Positions 2,549-9,872 of a stretch of DNA of 35,370 nucleotides are shown here, piece by piece. Position numbers and translations under genes: made by a program. Source of the DNA: Acidobacteriaceae bacterium (GTDB lineage: Bacteria > Acidobacteriota > Terriglobia > Terriglobales > Acidobacteriaceae); assembly GCA_003151985.1 (NCBI GenBank), contig PLZC01000402.1:1-35370 (forward strand), in the 5' to 3' direction. The notes below the pieces were generated by a model. It worked only from the letters and a program-made list of their open reading frames with translations. It had not been told where the DNA came from and ran no database searches. Position 1 is the stretch's first letter. Each line of letters starts with the position of its first letter.

Positions 2549-3655
2549 ATGCAATCCAGTCGATCGATGGTGGCAACGGTTGTTTTCACGGGTATTTTGG
2601 TTTGTGGTTGCGGTGGAGGAAGCGCGAGCGGAACTGCGGCTCCGGGGCCAGCGGCGGCTGCTCCCACCGTTGCTACCGCTGCGGCACGGAACGGCGCGGT
2701 GGTGGTGACCCTGGCTGCGGCGACACCGGGGGCCACCATTTACTACACGGTGGACGGCAGCGCTCCCGGCACATCGTCGCCGCGATATTTTGCGCCGTTC
2801 CTGGTTGCATCCAACGTCACGGTCAAGGCCATCGCCGCAGTTTCAGGCGGCACTCCCAGCGCCGTGACCGGCCAGACGTTTGCGGCTGACATTCCCTCGG
2901 GAGCGCTGGTGTGGAGCGAAGAGTTCAACCCAGGCGTGGTCAGCAATCAGCCCAATCCGCGAGTGTGGACATACGACACAGGCAACAACGGATTCGGCAA
3001 TCAGGAACTGGAAAACTACTGCGGGTTCGCATCCGCGGCCTCGCCGTGCGACGCCACGAAACCTAACGCCATTGTCGGTATTGACGGCAAACTGCACATC
3101 ACGGCCCGCCAGCCCTCGCCGGGCGTTTACACCTCGGCGCGGCTCAAGTCGCAGGGGCTGTTCAGCTTTCAATACGGGCGCATCGAGGCGCGGATGAAGT
3201 TGCCGGAAGGGCCGGGGATGTGGCCGGCGTTCTGGCTGCTGGGGAATAACATCACGACCATCGATTGGCCGGCGTGCGGGGAGCTTGACGTGATGGAACA
3301 TATCGACGGCAGCAATCCGCAGAATGAAGGCTTCGACTGGGTGCAGGGATCGGTGCACGGCACGGGGCTCAACGGCGGCACTCAGTACCATCCGGCGGGG
3401 TTTTCCGCGGCCGCGTGGCACACGTACGGCATGATCTGGAGCAAAGGGCAGATTCAGTACTACATCGACCAGCCGACGAATGTGTACGCCACGTTCACGC
3501 CTGCGACCCAGCCGGGAACTTGGCCGTTTGACGACGGACCGCAGTTTATTCTTCTCAACCTGGCTGTGGGGGGAAGTTGGCCGGGGCCGCCGAACGGGAC
3601 TACTGTTTTTCCGTCTGAGCTGCTTGTGGATTATGTGCGGATTTATTCGAACTAG
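2549..3655 (+). CDS. GH16-family endo-beta-glucanase (laminarinase-like) lipoprotein
   Basis: Predicted secreted or surface hydrolase of beta-1,3(4)-glucans or related polysaccharides. The ATG at 2549 is chosen because GGAG lies six bases upstream and the signal peptide starts there. A GTG at 2486 would add 21 residues. The 368-residue product has a signal peptide ending in a lipobox-like VCGC (Cys21). Residues 38-112 look like a chitobiase/hexosaminidase C-terminal type beta-sandwich (YYTVDGSAPGTSS). Residues 120-368 are the GH16 jelly roll, with the catalytic signature ELDVME (Glu245, Asp247, Glu250; the E-x-D-x-x-E form) and typical stretches YTSARLKSQG and GMWPAFWLLG. It stands alone between the metH terminator and a structured intergenic element. 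The family call is firm; the substrate is inferred. Confidence 0.93.
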   Translation: MQSSRSMVATVVFTGILVCGCGGGSASGTAAPGPAAAAPTVATAAARNGAVVVTLAAATPGATIYYTVDGSAPGTSSPRYFAPFLVASNVTVKAIAAVSGGTPSAVTGQTFAADIPSGALVWSEEFNPGVVSNQPNPRVWTYDTGNNGFGNQELENYCGFASAASPCDATKPNAIVGIDGKLHITARQPSPGVYTSARLKSQGLFSFQYGRIEARMKLPEGPGMWPAFWLLGNNITTIDWPACGELDVMEHIDGSNPQNEGFDWVQGSVHGTGLNGGTQYHPAGFSAAAWHTYGMIWSKGQIQYYIDQPTNVYATFTPATQPGTWPFDDGPQFILLNLAVGGSWPGPPNGTTVFPSELLVDYVRIYSN

Positions 3656-3770: not shown

Positions 3771-4304
3771 ATGACGCGCCGTGCCCAAATGCTCATCCTG
3801 CTCGTGACGCTGCTTTCGGCAGCTATTGCGCAATCGGTATCGTCGGACCACGCGGGGCTCAAAGCTACATTTGTGGCATCGAATGGAAATGTGCTCGAAC
3901 TAGATACACGGGCTGGAACTCTCGTTACCCCACGCTCACGAGGTACTCGGCTCGAAGATTGCGGTGACAAGATTCAAGTGTGTCTAACCGACCACCATGG
4001 ATTTGCGTTCGCTTATTTTCGAAAGTGTAACGATGCGGGGTCCGGGGATTATAAGCGCCTCAGGTTTCGTCCAAAAGTCGTATCAGTGCTGCACAACAGC
4101 GACATATGGATGGTTTTCGACGCTGCCCCCAATTATTTGTTCCACTATGCCTATTCTAAGGGCATCGTCGGGATCTATCTTGGGCCGACGGCTTCATTCG
4201 ATTTTCGTAGTGTTCTGCATGATCGGAATTTTCAGCTGGCTAGTCTTGATGCGATGGAATATCGCATTACCAGTTCTGACACTGTTGCTGCGTGCGGCGA
4301 GTGA
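3771..4304 (+). CDS. Small secreted protein of unknown function
   Basis: I do not recognise a family for this 177-residue protein. It is supported as a gene by AGGAGG six bases before the ATG and by a clear signal peptide (residues 1-20, LLVTLLSAAIA, cleavage before QS). The mature part has four cysteines (64, 71, 86, 175), which could form two disulfides. Its alternating hydrophobic and polar stretches look like a beta-rich fold. It sits between the GH16 lipoprotein gene and the riboswitch. A lone export with no operon partner suggests a periplasmic or extracellular role, but nothing in the sequence says which. Confidence 0.65.
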   Translation: MTRRAQMLILLVTLLSAAIAQSVSSDHAGLKATFVASNGNVLELDTRAGTLVTPRSRGTRLEDCGDKIQVCLTDHHGFAFAYFRKCNDAGSGDYKRLRFRPKVVSVLHNSDIWMVFDAAPNYLFHYAYSKGIVGIYLGPTASFDFRSVLHDRNFQLASLDAMEYRITSSDTVAACGE

Positions 4305-4404
4305 CTCGTTTCACCGGCAAAGAACGTGACGCCGCTTTTCCCCTACCCGCCAAATCCCGGAATCGCCCTTTTAAACCACTTGGCTCGCTGTTTGCTGCAA
4401 ACAC

Positions 4405-4431
4405 TTGCGCTCGAATTCCGCCTGTGATACA
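4405..4431 (+). promoter_or_regulatory. Possible promoter of the riboswitch operon
   Basis: TTGCGC at 4405 and GATACA at 4426, 15 bases apart, with TG one base before the -10 (extended -10 form). It would start the transcript near 4438, just before the leader hairpin and the SAM aptamer. The match is weak, and its position is the main argument. Confidence 0.3.
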
Positions 4432-4445
4432 ACCGAATCATTCAA

Positions 4446-4466
4446 GTTTGCCCCCACAGGGCAAAC
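4446..4466 (+). promoter_or_regulatory. Perfect hairpin immediately 5' of the SAM aptamer
   Basis: GTTTGCCC (4446-4453) and GGGCAAAC (4459-4466) form eight perfect pairs around CCACA. It lies four bases before the aptamer's P1 stem and has no T-tract. It would be at the extreme 5' end of the leader RNA if the promoter near 4405-4431 is right, so a 5'-stabilising stem is plausible. Confidence 0.6.
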
Positions 4467-4470
4467 CTGG

Positions 4471-4580
4471 ATTTCATGCAGAGTGGCTGAGGGACGGGCC
4501 CTGTGACGCCACGACAACCTGCCTGGGCAAACCAGGAGTATGGTGTCAACTCTCGCTCGCTTCGGCGGGGAACATGAGAT
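4471..4580 (+). promoter_or_regulatory. SAM-I (S-box) riboswitch aptamer
   Basis: The S-box core is readable. P1 pairs ATTTCATG (4471-4478) with CATGAGAT (4573-4580). P2 is closed by GTGGC (4483-4487) and GCCAC (4508-4512), with GAGGGACGGGCCC in the kink-turn region and ACAACC (4514-4519) as J2/3. P3 contains CCTGG-GCAAA-CCAGG, followed by GGTGTCAAC, the counterpart of the conserved GGTGCTAAT strand. P4 contains the TTCG turn near 4561-4564. Known S-box aptamers bind S-adenosylmethionine and shut off methionine and SAM genes. Here the regulated genes are the threonine-synthase-like and MoaD-like genes downstream, which points to a role in sulfur assimilation. Confidence 0.88.
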
Positions 4581-4606
4581 TCGGGGGTCGCTTCAGCACT
4601 CTTAGC

Positions 4607-4628
4607 CGAGGCGCCTCGCACGGTTTTT
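4607..4628 (+). terminator. Possible terminator arm of the riboswitch expression platform
   Basis: The perfect palindrome CGAGGCGCCTCG (4607-4618) is followed by CACGG and TTTTT (4624-4628), 27 bases after the aptamer. The stem is short (four pairs with a GCGC loop), so termination would be weak. It could act together with the downstream hairpin that masks the ribosome binding site. Confidence 0.3.
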
Positions 4629-4687
4629 CGAGTCCAATCACGTTCGCTCTTAATCGAGCCGGTCACGCGCCCGCGTATCCGCTGTCA

Positions 4688-4709
4688 CTCTCGCAAACAT
4701 TTGCGAGGG
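4688..4709 (+). promoter_or_regulatory. Hairpin sequestering the ribosome binding site of the thrC-like gene
   Basis: CTCTCGCAA (4688-4696) pairs with TTGCGAGGG (4701-4709) around ACAT, with one T-G pair. The 3' arm contains the Shine-Dalgarno sequence GAGGG, only four bases before the GTG at 4714. Folding would block translation. This is a good candidate for the OFF state of a translational SAM switch. Confidence 0.65.
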
Positions 4710-4713
4710 ATGA

Positions 4714-6021
4714 GTGACGACGACTGCCTACGAATTGCGATGTCGCGAATGCGGCAAATCCTATGGGATACAGCCGCTTTCGATCTGTGACGAGTGTTTT
4801 TCCCCGCTTGAGGTGGCCTTCGACCTCGAGTATGCCCGCACCCGCTTTACCCGCCAGACAATTTCGCAAGGCCCCTTGAATATGTGGCGCTATCGTGCCC
4901 TGCTGCCGGTCGCGGATAGCTACGAGCCGCAGACGCCGGCCGGGCTGACGCCGCTGATGAAGGCGCCGCGCCTGGGAGCGCACATTGGGGCGCGGAATCT
5001 CTACATCAAGAACGACGCGGTGTGCCTGCCTACGCTGAGCTTCAAGGATCGCGTGGTGGCTGTTGCGCTGGCCAATGCGCAGGCCTTTGGGTTTGACACG
5101 GTTGGGTGCTCCTCGACGGGCAACCTGGCCAATGCCGTGGCCGCCGGGGCCGCCCGGCTGGGATTGAAGTCGATCATCCTGGTGCCGGCCGATCTGGAGC
5201 CGGCCAAGATTTTGAACACGCAGGTTTATGGCGCGACGCTGGTGCGGGTGCAGGGGAACTACGACCACTGCAATCGGCTCTCCTCGCAGATTGCCGAGCG
5301 CTACAACTGGGGATTTGTGAATGTGAACCTGCGGCCCTACTACGCCGAGGGATCGAAGACGGTGGGGTACGAGATTGCGGAGCAACTGGGCTGGCGGCTG
5401 CCTGACAACCTGGTTTGCCCCATGGCCGGCGGGTCGCTGATCACTAAGATCCGCAAGGCCTTCAGCGAGCTGGTTGCACTGGGGCTCGTGGAGGACCGGC
5501 CGGTGCGGTTCTTCGGCGCGCAGGCCACGGGGTGCAATCCGATTTCTACGGCGGTGAAGAACGGGACGGATCTGATTGAGCCGCAGCGGCCGAACACCAT
5601 CGCGCGGTCGCTGGCGATTGGCAATCCTGCCGACGGGCCTTATGCTTCGCGGGCCATTCGTGCTTCAGGGGGCTGGGCCGAAGATGTGTCGGACATCGAA
5701 ATTGTCTCCGCTATCCAGGAATTGGCCGAGACCGAGGGGATCTTCACGGAGACGGCGGGCGGGGTTACGACGGCGGTGACGGCGCGGCTTTATGCTCATG
5801 GGCGCATCCATCCTGACGAGCTAACCGTCACCTGCATTACCGGCAACGGCCTCAAGACCACCGACTGCCTGAGCGGCGCCTACGACCAAAGCGATGCCAT
5901 CCGGCCCCGCCTGGCCGACTTTGAAAACTTCGTTGAAGAACACAACGCCGCAAATCCAGAACTCATCCCGGAACTGGGTCAGGCCTTGAGCCTGGCCGGA
6001 GGAGCCACTTATGTCCGTTAG
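4714..6021 (+). CDS. Threonine-synthase-like PLP enzyme under SAM riboswitch control
   Basis: Fold-type II PLP lyase, 435 residues, of the threonine synthase family. Classical members convert O-phosphohomoserine to threonine. It has an N-terminal zinc-ribbon-like segment (Cys10, Cys13, Cys25, Cys28), the PLP lysine in LSFKDR (Lys111), the phosphate/substrate loop SSTGN (133-137) and a Gly-rich cofactor loop PMAGGS. The GTG at 4714 lies four bases after GAGGG. The last 35 residues (after about 400) form an extra tail ending AGGATYVR. Two features argue against housekeeping threonine synthesis: the upstream SAM riboswitch, and an 11-base overlap with a MoaD/ThiS-like carrier gene. CysM, a related enzyme, makes cysteine from O-phosphoserine and the CysO thiocarboxylate. 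By analogy this enzyme may make homocysteine from O-phosphohomoserine. Plain threonine synthase remains possible. Confidence 0.9.
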   Translation: MTTTAYELRCRECGKSYGIQPLSICDECFSPLEVAFDLEYARTRFTRQTISQGPLNMWRYRALLPVADSYEPQTPAGLTPLMKAPRLGAHIGARNLYIKNDAVCLPTLSFKDRVVAVALANAQAFGFDTVGCSSTGNLANAVAAGAARLGLKSIILVPADLEPAKILNTQVYGATLVRVQGNYDHCNRLSSQIAERYNWGFVNVNLRPYYAEGSKTVGYEIAEQLGWRLPDNLVCPMAGGSLITKIRKAFSELVALGLVEDRPVRFFGAQATGCNPISTAVKNGTDLIEPQRPNTIARSLAIGNPADGPYASRAIRASGGWAEDVSDIEIVSAIQELAETEGIFTETAGGVTTAVTARLYAHGRIHPDELTVTCITGNGLKTTDCLSGAYDQSDAIRPRLADFENFVEEHNAANPELIPELGQALSLAGGATYVR

Positions 6022-6304
6022 AGTTTTGTTGCCGAATGCATTTCAGAAGCACACCAACAACGTCCGCGAAATATCCAGCACGGCCGCCAATCTGCCTGAC
6101 CTGGTTACGGACATTGAGTATCGCTTTCCGGCGCTGCGGCCGCATCTGCGCGGCGAGGATGGGCAAATCCGGCGCTTTATCAACTTCTATGTGAATGAGG
6201 AAGACATACGCTTCCTGGGCAACGAGACGTACTGCTTTAAAGAAGGGGACGAAGTGCTGGTCATTCCTTCGATCGCGGGGGGTTGTTGCCAAGGGTCGCT
6301 GTAG
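6011..6304 (+). CDS. MoaD/ThiS/CysO-like sulfur-carrier protein with C-terminal extension
   Basis: A 97-residue beta-grasp (ubiquitin-like) protein. It starts with a MoaD-type strand (SVRVLLPNAF) and ends with EGDEVLVIPSIAGG, the family's tail motif. Family members carry sulfur as a thiocarboxylate on a terminal Gly-Gly. Here Gly90-Gly91 is followed by six more residues, CCQGSL, so a protease (for example a JAMM/Mec-type enzyme, not seen in this window) would be needed to expose the tail. The ATG lies inside the end of the upstream gene (11-base overlap), implying translational coupling and a 1:1 partnership with the threonine-synthase-like enzyme. A molybdopterin-synthase role is less likely because no moa or moe gene is nearby. 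CysO-type sulfur donation fits best. Confidence 0.85.
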   Translation: MSVRVLLPNAFQKHTNNVREISSTAANLPDLVTDIEYRFPALRPHLRGEDGQIRRFINFYVNEEDIRFLGNETYCFKEGDEVLVIPSIAGGCCQGSL

Positions 6305-6339
6305 TAATTCCTTCAAATCCGGAGATGCGGATTGAGCCC

Positions 6340-6394
6340 CGGGCCTGAAGGCCCGCCGCAAAATGGCTCTTTTTCAGAGGGCTGAAGCCCTCTG
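6340..6394. repeat. Tandem hairpin repeat (GGGCTGAAGCCC type)
   Basis: Two perfect hairpins, both with a TGAA loop: CGGGCC/GGCCCG (6340-6355) and CAGAGGGC/GCCCTCTG (6375-6394). They resemble the pair with TAAA loops near 9761-9812, and look like REP-type dispersed elements. The right-hand hairpin supplies the in-frame stop (6383-6385) that bounds the acyltransferase remnant downstream. Confidence 0.65.
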
Positions 6395-6928
6395 CTCCCT
6401 CCGGGAACCTTCGATTTGCATCCGCCGACGTTGCTCCGGGAGGGGATTCTGGAGTTGGGCTACGCCTCGACCGACCGCGAACATCGGACCCCCGAGGTGC
6501 TGACCTTGTTATGGATAGGCATTGCGCAGTATGCTACCGAAATGGGGCTTCGTACGTTGATCGGTTGCTCTTCATTGAACTCCAAAGACCCGGCTGATAG
6601 TTGGCAGCAGTATCGCCAGCTCGAGCACAATCGGGTTTCACGGGAGTTTGAGACAGAGCCGACCGCATCCTGCGTTTGTTCCTGCGAGCAAGAGGGCGCA
6701 CATGCACAGCCGTCGCCCTGCCTTCATCCCTCTTTGTTGCCTGATCCAGCCCCGGCAGAAGCCAAGGTCCCGAAGTCACTCAAGACCTATTTGGCCATCG
6801 GCACGCGCATCTGCGCTCCGCCGGCTTGGGACCGCGAGTTCGGCACCATCGACTTCCTCACATTGCTCGATCTTAGACTGATATCTTCCTCGGCGCGGAA
6901 TCGCTTTCTGGCGCCGCTTACCACTTGA
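6386..6928 (+). pseudogene. Remnant of an OlsB/hemolysin-type N-acyltransferase, N-terminus missing
   Basis: Intact family members make lyso-ornithine lipid by N-acylating ornithine. The visible product matches only the C-terminal part of the family: ELGYASTDREHRTPEVL, LLWIGIAQYATEMG, LIGCSSLNSKDP, then KTYLAIGTRICAPPAWDREF and LLDLRLISSSARNRFL. The N-terminal portion, roughly a hundred residues, is absent. Upstream the frame is closed by a stop inside the hairpin repeat, and before that lies the complete MoaD-like gene. There is no good start; the first candidate is a TTG at 6416 without a ribosome binding site. It still overlaps the next gene by TTGA, as the intact pair would. I read it as a gene truncated at the repeat junction. 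Confidence 0.7.
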
Positions 6929-7671
6929 ATCTTCGCCCGGTCCGGCGCGCTGTGGCGCTGGCATTCGCTCTTCTCACCTGTATTCTTCGCTTCTGGCTCA
7001 TGCGCCTGCGTGGTCCCATCACCATGGTTCGCCGTGCCCAGTGGATCCAGGCATCCGGCCGCGGAATACTCACGAGCCTGGGCATCGATTACCGCATCGA
7101 AGGCCGGCCGCCGACTTACGGGCTGGTGGTCTCAAACCATCTCAGTTACCTCGACGTCCTCATTCTTTCGGCGGCCATGCCCTTGGCGTTTGTCGCCAAG
7201 GTGGAGATCGGCCGTTGGCCCTACTTTGGAAAGGCCGCGCGCGCTGGCGGAACCATATTTCTCGATCGTTCTAGCCGGGCAAGCGCCGCGTCCGTCGCTG
7301 ACCAGATGGTGGAGCGGCTCAAGCTTCCCATTCCTGTGCTGCTGTTTCCCGAGGGGACCAGCACCGACGGCAGCGAGGTGTTGCCCTTTCATCCCCGGCT
7401 CATCGATCCGGCGACTTCGACGGGGACGCCGATCACGGCTGCGGCGGTTCGCTATGTGATTGATGGCGGCGTCGAGGAGCGAGAACTGTGCTGGTACGGC
7501 GACACACTGTTCCTGACTCATTTGATGAAGGCGCTGCGCACACCTGGGTTCGCTGCCGAAGTCAGCTTCGGCGAGCCGCGGATCTATCCCGACCGCCGCA
7601 TTGCTGCCAACGCTACATGGGCGGAAGTGAGGGCCATGCGGGAGGGCAAGGGCGTTCTCGTCCTGCAGTAA
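6925..7671 (+). CDS. PlsC/OlsA-type 1-acyl-glycerol-3-phosphate (or lyso-ornithine lipid) acyltransferase
   Basis: Membrane-bound O-acyltransferase, 248 residues. It shows an N-terminal hydrophobic helix (residues 8-25), the catalytic NHLSYLD (HX4D: His72, Asp77) and the acyl-acceptor motif FPEGTST (141-147). The proposed TTG start at 6925 overlaps the stop of the upstream OlsB-like remnant (TTGA). An ATG further in, at about residue 26 or 34, is possible. An olsB-olsA order suggests ornithine lipid synthesis in the ancestor. With olsB apparently broken, the enzyme may now act in phospholipid synthesis or be drifting. No terminator is visible after it. Confidence 0.88.
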   Translation: MNLRPVRRAVALAFALLTCILRFWLMRLRGPITMVRRAQWIQASGRGILTSLGIDYRIEGRPPTYGLVVSNHLSYLDVLILSAAMPLAFVAKVEIGRWPYFGKAARAGGTIFLDRSSRASAASVADQMVERLKLPIPVLLFPEGTSTDGSEVLPFHPRLIDPATSTGTPITAAAVRYVIDGGVEERELCWYGDTLFLTHLMKALRTPGFAAEVSFGEPRIYPDRRIAANATWAEVRAMREGKGVLVLQ

Positions 7672-9670: not shown

Positions 9671-9760
9671 TCATGTTAATTCATTTCGCGGCGTCATGCG
9701 GAGAGGTCCGCCCAGGGAAGCCAAGAACAAGATCCCTTTGAGCAGCCGACGTTCCCTCGG

Positions 9761-9812
9761 GGGCTAAAGCCCGGCTGATTCTGTGGCACTCATGTACGGG
9801 CTAAAGCCCGTA
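9761..9812. repeat. Hairpin repeat pair (GGGCTAAAGCCC type)
   Basis: Two hairpins: GGGC-TAAA-GCCC (9761-9772) and TACGGGC-TAAA-GCCCGTA (9795-9812). Both share the core of the 6340-6394 pair apart from the loop (TAAA against TGAA). They sit between the LacI and glycerate kinase genes. The second could help end transcription, but no T-tract follows on either strand. Confidence 0.65.
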
Positions 9813-9872
9813 CCCTTCAAGGCAGGGACTTGATCAGAGATTCCCTGGACGGGATGCCGCACCGGGGCCGAG

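Follow-up and report, generated by a model that had tools for sequence, protein, structure and literature searches.

What does a gene that passes for a threonine synthase gene do when it follows a SAM riboswitch and overlaps a gene for a sulfur carrier? Such a set lies in the window, by which we mean the whole 35,370-nucleotide stretch of Acidobacteriaceae DNA that was analysed. Judging from its parts, its relatives and the co-occurrence of its genes, the set is very probably a SAM-controlled MetM/MetO homocysteine-synthase cassette, for which catalysis, carrier processing and regulation would proceed as proposed below.

All parts of the cassette are encoded on the forward strand. The SAM-I (S-box) riboswitch aptamer spans positions 4471–4580 and matches RF00162 over model positions 1–108 of 108 with 75.7 bits (E 3.2e-16; gathering score 44.4), the sole match above the gathering score in an Rfam scan of the whole window. 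It is followed by the metM orthologue (4714–6021), a ThrC-like PLP enzyme of 435 amino acids with a GTG start, assigned by TIGR00260, PALP and the tree described below, and by the metO orthologue (6011–6304), a sulfur carrier of the ThiS/MoaD/CysO type with 97 amino acids (PF02597, 39.4 bits); the two ORFs share the 11 bases 6011–6021. Upstream lies metH (1–2297), a cobalamin-dependent methionine synthase gene recognized by Met_synt_B12, Pterin_bind and B12-binding domains and cut by the contig start, the end of which is 2.2 kb from the aptamer and 2.4 kb from the metM start. The downstream edge is a C-terminal GNAT (Acetyltransf_5) remnant at 6416–6928, identified by its match to a longer frame of the genus-mate G207; a Pfam scan of the window ORF itself gave no match. 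A preliminary description had named the aptamer, the ThrC-like gene with a zinc ribbon and an SFKDR motif, the MoaD/CysO-like gene overlapping it by 11 bases and metH about 2.4 kb upstream, all of which the profile searches and coordinates bear out.

In the minimum-energy fold of the leader, a hairpin at 4685–4713 (forward strand) pairs the GAGGG ribosome-binding site (4705–4709) and stops one base short of the GTG start, which pairs with 4639–4641 in the same fold. The whole leader had a folding z-score of -2.2, and 2 of 100 shuffles were equally stable. No terminator-like sites were found in 4250–6500. With a hairpin over GAGGG and no terminator-like site, translational control is the likely mode, and the predicted hairpin is likely to be the expression platform acting on translation; SAM would be expected to switch it.

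The enzyme exceeds the curated cut-off of the threonine synthase model TIGR00260 (280.6 versus 167.1 bits). PALP (PF00291, 230.4 bits) is its sole Pfam match, which places it outside Cys_Met_Meta_PP, and it carries four cysteines (C10, C13, C25 and C28) and the SFKDR motif with K111. Compared with solved structures, it scored up to 162.6 bits against threonine synthases and no more than 27.5 bits against cysteine synthases, and is thus nearer to the threonine synthases. A tree of 46 hand-chosen rows, with ThrC-like paralogues drawn from the family genomes and the Streptomyces albulus enzyme lying outside the rows, split 27 MetM rows (18 from the family and 9 from actinomycetes) from 19 ThrC-like paralogues with 100/100 support. 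The window enzyme did not group with the other ThrC-like genes of the family genomes. The paralogues of G018 and G007 came nearest to the MetM group, with weak support (86/56), and long-branch joins in the tree were flagged as possibly false. Thirty-one positions are constant in the 27 MetM rows and seen in at most one of the 19 ThrC-like rows. Among them, N205 and Y210 of the window enzyme align with Ser155 and Arg160 of Thermus ThrC, which we take to be phosphate contacts; a literature search on these contacts found no paper. Near N205 and Y210, R207 is invariant in MetM. The MetM substrate pocket may thus have been remodelled relative to that of ThrC. The enzyme therefore shares with ThrC (TIGR00260) a sequence family, the PLP lysine and the presumed substrate O-phosphohomoserine, but differs in its separate tree group, its 31 distinguishing positions, its coupling to a carrier and its SAM regulation; a gene that passes a threonine synthase model can, on this reading, be a methionine enzyme. 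In the metM of one family genome (G027, locus L013), a single zinc-ribbon cysteine of the four remains and serines replace the other three (SKESG in place of CRECG, CDESF in place of CDECF); the ribbon is therefore lost or dispensable there.

The window carrier is not GG-terminal: GG stands at residues 90–91 and is followed by CCQGSL. Its two best solved matches were 3dwg_C (57.8 bits, cfp10A in the PDB), which we take to be CysO of Mycobacterium, and then 4n6e_B. CysO of Mycobacterium likewise has residues after GG and requires a JAMM peptidase. The window set thus shares its carrier type with the CysM/CysO/Mec system of Mycobacterium, but differs in having an enzyme that belongs with ThrC within the PALP fold and in its SAM regulation. 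Because the carrier extends past GG, a peptidase would be needed besides an E1. In 5 of the 28 family loci that have a carrier (L002–L006, in G058, G031, G033, G015 and G029), GG is followed by a tail of 18–33 residues with a conserved CCSYCGxExC; the codons differ between genomes, so it is the protein sequence that is conserved, and no Pfam domain was found in the two of the five Cys-rich tails that were scanned. Speculatively, and with little confidence, family MetO might be a pro-carrier that its post-GG residues hold inactive until it is trimmed by a JAMM peptidase common to a CysO-like system; in one subclade the 18–33-residue Cys tail would bind metal or sulfur, and sulfur state and SAM level would jointly gate homocysteine synthesis.

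Relatives of the pair occur in actinomycetes. Plasmid records searched by tblastn (E limit 1e-60) gave one match, an 11.85-Mb Nonomuraea record with an enzyme 54% identical to that of the window and the same order of S-box, enzyme and carrier; the carriers are 36% identical. Named genomes were scanned with a 14-row alignment that had the Nonomuraea sequence as its first row, and the best 80 of 574 confirmed stretches were kept. All of these best 80 are actinomycete, many of them from Streptomyces, and in every one a carrier lies no more than about 600 bases downstream of the enzyme; 63 of the 80 carriers end exactly at GG and 17 carry 1–7 extra residues. An S-box was found upstream of the enzyme in 20 of 20 tested loci drawn from the best 80 of 574. 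The window enzyme is 52–56% identical to 25 of these 80 actinomycete relatives, and its host presumably belongs to another phylum than Streptomyces. In S. albulus, MetO reportedly feeds MetM.

The enzyme/carrier pairing has already been described in outline, as MetM/MetO of S. albulus. In a literature search for it, PMC12172450 was the sole relevant source among the matches listed, with most subscription papers outside the coverage. According to excerpts of that paper, the homocysteine synthase MetM was identified in Streptomyces by Hasebe et al. 2024 (AEM 90:e01247-24), a SAM riboswitch lies upstream of S. albulus metM, and S. albulus has metO, to which a sulfur-carrier-family gene adjoining a Microcystis enzyme is 47.25% alike. 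The same excerpts put the Microcystis enzyme at 51.6% identity to S. albulus MetM and report that in vitro it made threonine and produced 2-oxobutyrate from threonine, that a peak of unassigned identity close to methionine appeared when O-phosphohomoserine was supplied, and that the authors are doubtful whether the enzyme fully acts as MetM in Microcystis cells (PMC12172450). As excerpted, these activities count against a simple transfer of the MetM function.

As far as the excerpts reach, the window and S. albulus sets have in common a SAM riboswitch, a ThrC-family enzyme and a ThiS/MoaD-type carrier. They differ in that the window genes overlap, the window carrier has six residues after GG and its genome also has metY–metX, the comparison being made through actinomycete relatives instead of the S. 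albulus proteins. The preliminary description had proposed that O-phosphohomoserine and a carrier thiocarboxylate give homocysteine, which in the light of these excerpts is the published MetM/MetO route. The proposal fits the parts seen here and, by analogy, the Streptomyces route; the threonine and 2-oxobutyrate formed by the Microcystis homologue speak against it.

We then asked how the cassette is distributed among 60 genomes from 59 genera of the family, the window's own genome (G000) included. A MetM orthologue (at least 66% identity; the next best match had 40%) was present in 31 of the 60, so that a homocysteine route recently described in actinomycetes may extend to these genomes of another bacterial family. 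All 31 also have another ThrC-like gene, as had been anticipated for genomes with the pair (in G051 only as a fragment where a contig ends). A MetO-grade carrier (over 90 bits) was found beside metM on the same contig in 29 of the 31 and in none of the other 29 genomes, though carriers of a weaker, CysO-like kind are present in many of these; the MetM genomes without one are G010 and G012. In G010, a homoserine dehydrogenase-like ORF, recognized by eye, lies directly upstream of metM, with no adjoining carrier. The JAB peptidase was uninformative as a partner tracking MetM, being present in 58 of 60 genomes, and G051, one of the two that lack it, has MetM.

S-boxes above the cut-off occurred in 25 of the 31 MetM genomes, and in all 25 one stood next to metM; the remaining 6 MetM genomes and the 29 others had none. 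A scan of 30 loci likewise gave 25 S-boxes; L018 and L030, which account for two of the five misses, are truncated on the upstream side. As the search of the 60 genomes used stricter filters, with 52 candidates scored per genome, weak S-boxes may be missed. The link between SAM riboswitch and metM is thus near-exclusive in this sample (25 of 26 S-boxes above the cut-off). The sole S-box away from metM is the second one of G049 (L166; G049:C36:313643-313757), directly before an ORF (313816–315033) that by eye is a probable cysteine desulfurase gene; this arrangement would suit a role in providing the carrier with sulfur and, like the carrier residues after GG, is a new detail. In G035 (L167), which was scored as lacking MetM, a sub-threshold S-box of 38.9 bits stands at a contig end (G035:C181:2-92), and the assembly may lack a metM that the genome has.

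The known routes to homocysteine were distributed differently. MetX above 300 bits was found in 17 of 60 genomes, namely in 2 of the 31 MetM genomes (G000 and G033) versus 15 of the 29 others. This cut-off was set at a gap between 322 and 156 bits, as no match reached the curated 500 bits, control genomes included; 10 of the 29 MetM genomes below 300 bits have uncounted MetX matches of 87–149 bits. MetA was present in 4 of 60 genomes, 3 of them with MetM, and MetY above the TIGR01326 cut-off in 20 of 60; TIGR01326 was used in place of PF01053, a MetY/MetB marker that was uninformative because it matched in 60 of 60 genomes. MetX or MetA accompanies MetM in 5 of the 31 MetM genomes. With genomes treated as independent, which they are not, Fisher tests gave p values of 1.2e-4 for MetM versus MetX, 0.0026 versus MetX or MetA and 0.0057 versus MetY. 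By the thresholds used, MetX, MetA and MetY are all absent from 26 of the 31 MetM genomes, to which the cassette would offer a methionine route. That methionine is made without metX, metA or metY, as had been suggested, accordingly agrees with the gene content of these 26 genomes and is not borne out for the window's own, which has metY–metX. In this survey of MetM, MetX, MetA and MetY, 13 of the 60 genomes have neither MetM nor MetX or MetA, and little can therefore be concluded from a missing classical route.

The metY–metX pair of the own genome lies on contig C391, is 86% and 74% identical to that of the genus-mate G007 and is apparently complete from its sequence. A broken metX had been considered on account of a flagged TAG; this codon closes the match and is preceded by 468 codons of open frame, so it reads as the normal metX stop. 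The genus-mates G007 and G207 gave no MetM match at E 1e-120. In G207, DNA matching window positions 2689–3636 (a GH16 gene) and 6433–7599 stands only 1.05 kb apart, the second block (GNAT remnant and acyltransferase gene) matching G207:C43 198–1352. The cassette is absent from this site, which holds a 379-codon frame with a GNAT domain, and the window retains about the last 160 codons of that frame after metO. The MetM sequences nearest to that of the window (81–82% identity) belong to other genera of the family. On the simplest reading, the cassette was acquired from within the family, beside an existing metX route; the alternative is its loss in G207. Contamination of the bin was suspected behind the co-occurrence of metM and metX, since G007 has no metM and another type of metH. 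The composition of the window is within the range of other sampled contigs (two of the four window pieces are at the upper end), metH is 80% identical in DNA to that of G207 and the matching blocks are in the same order, and contamination was therefore rejected.

On a further contig of the own genome, C467 (L033), PALP-enzyme frames broken up by masked bases come first, followed by a JAB peptidase gene, then by a CysO-like stretch whose match contains two stops, and last by a ThiF-rhodanese gene; the carrier looks broken in this partly masked assembly. The neighbouring JAB peptidase and ThiF-rhodanese genes speak in favour of the proposed cassette. Thr_synth_N (PF14821) had no match in the own genome.

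Outside the family the trio is looser. A MetM match at E 1e-120 or better was found in 47 of 197 genomes of the phylum, and 31 of these 47 are outside the family. Among 20 such loci examined, a carrier lay directly downstream in 7 and an S-box upstream in 6; one (L188) had both and 8 had neither, 7 of these 8 at 48–51% identity. Given this looser arrangement, some homologues may do something else.

In the mechanism that we propose, the S-box would leave the metM start open at low SAM, and MetM would be made together with the overlapping MetO. MetO would be cut back to GG, the likely agent being a JAMM peptidase whose gene lies elsewhere, and then adenylated and thiocarboxylated by an E1 of the ThiF/MoeB-rhodanese type. 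The MetO thiocarboxylate would hand its sulfur to MetM, which would eliminate phosphate from O-phosphohomoserine and add the sulfur to give homocysteine, for MetH to methylate. In Wolinella, HcyS/HcyD–MetY also makes homocysteine from a carrier thiocarboxylate; its enzyme is of the MetY type, whereas that of the window belongs to PALP.

Could the pair serve another product? A cysteine synthase of the CysM type, using O-phosphoserine and a CysO-like thiocarboxylate, would suit the PALP fold common to both enzymes and the top solved match of the carrier, CysO. The enzyme is far nearer to solved threonine synthases (162.6 versus at most 27.5 bits), the own genome has its separate PALP/JAB/ThiF-rhodanese cluster and a SAM riboswitch points to methionine, all of which makes this reading highly implausible. 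Taking the TIGR00260 score at face value, one might instead see a second threonine synthase, or a synthase/deaminase, under SAM control, with the carrier serving something else; according to the excerpts of PMC12172450, both activities were seen in vitro with the Microcystis homologue. We regard this as improbable, because the enzyme stands apart from the ThrC-like paralogues of the family in the tree, all 31 MetM genomes have another ThrC-like gene, 29 of them have the carrier coupled to metM, and a SAM switch is a poor fit for threonine. The MetM-specific positions, including those opposite Ser155 and Arg160 of Thermus ThrC, point the same way.

Homocysteine might also be made mainly from free sulfide, MetO being accessory or regulatory. 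Excerpts of PMC12172450 state that Na2S was used, after Hasebe et al., to mimic MetM activity, and the carrier is missing in places: G010 and G012 have none of MetO grade, and 13 of the 20 loci outside the family have none adjoining. Against it stands the tight coupling of MetO, seen both in actinomycetes and within the family, and we consider this variant very improbable. We therefore favour the carrier-fed MetM/MetO cassette.

Two minor observations concern the window and a relative. A dispersed repeat of about 130 bases at window positions 9713–9846 has whole or partial copies, with 80–92% identity, on 10 other contigs of the own genome, and the related locus L017 has a match to the Acido-Lenti-1 RNA.
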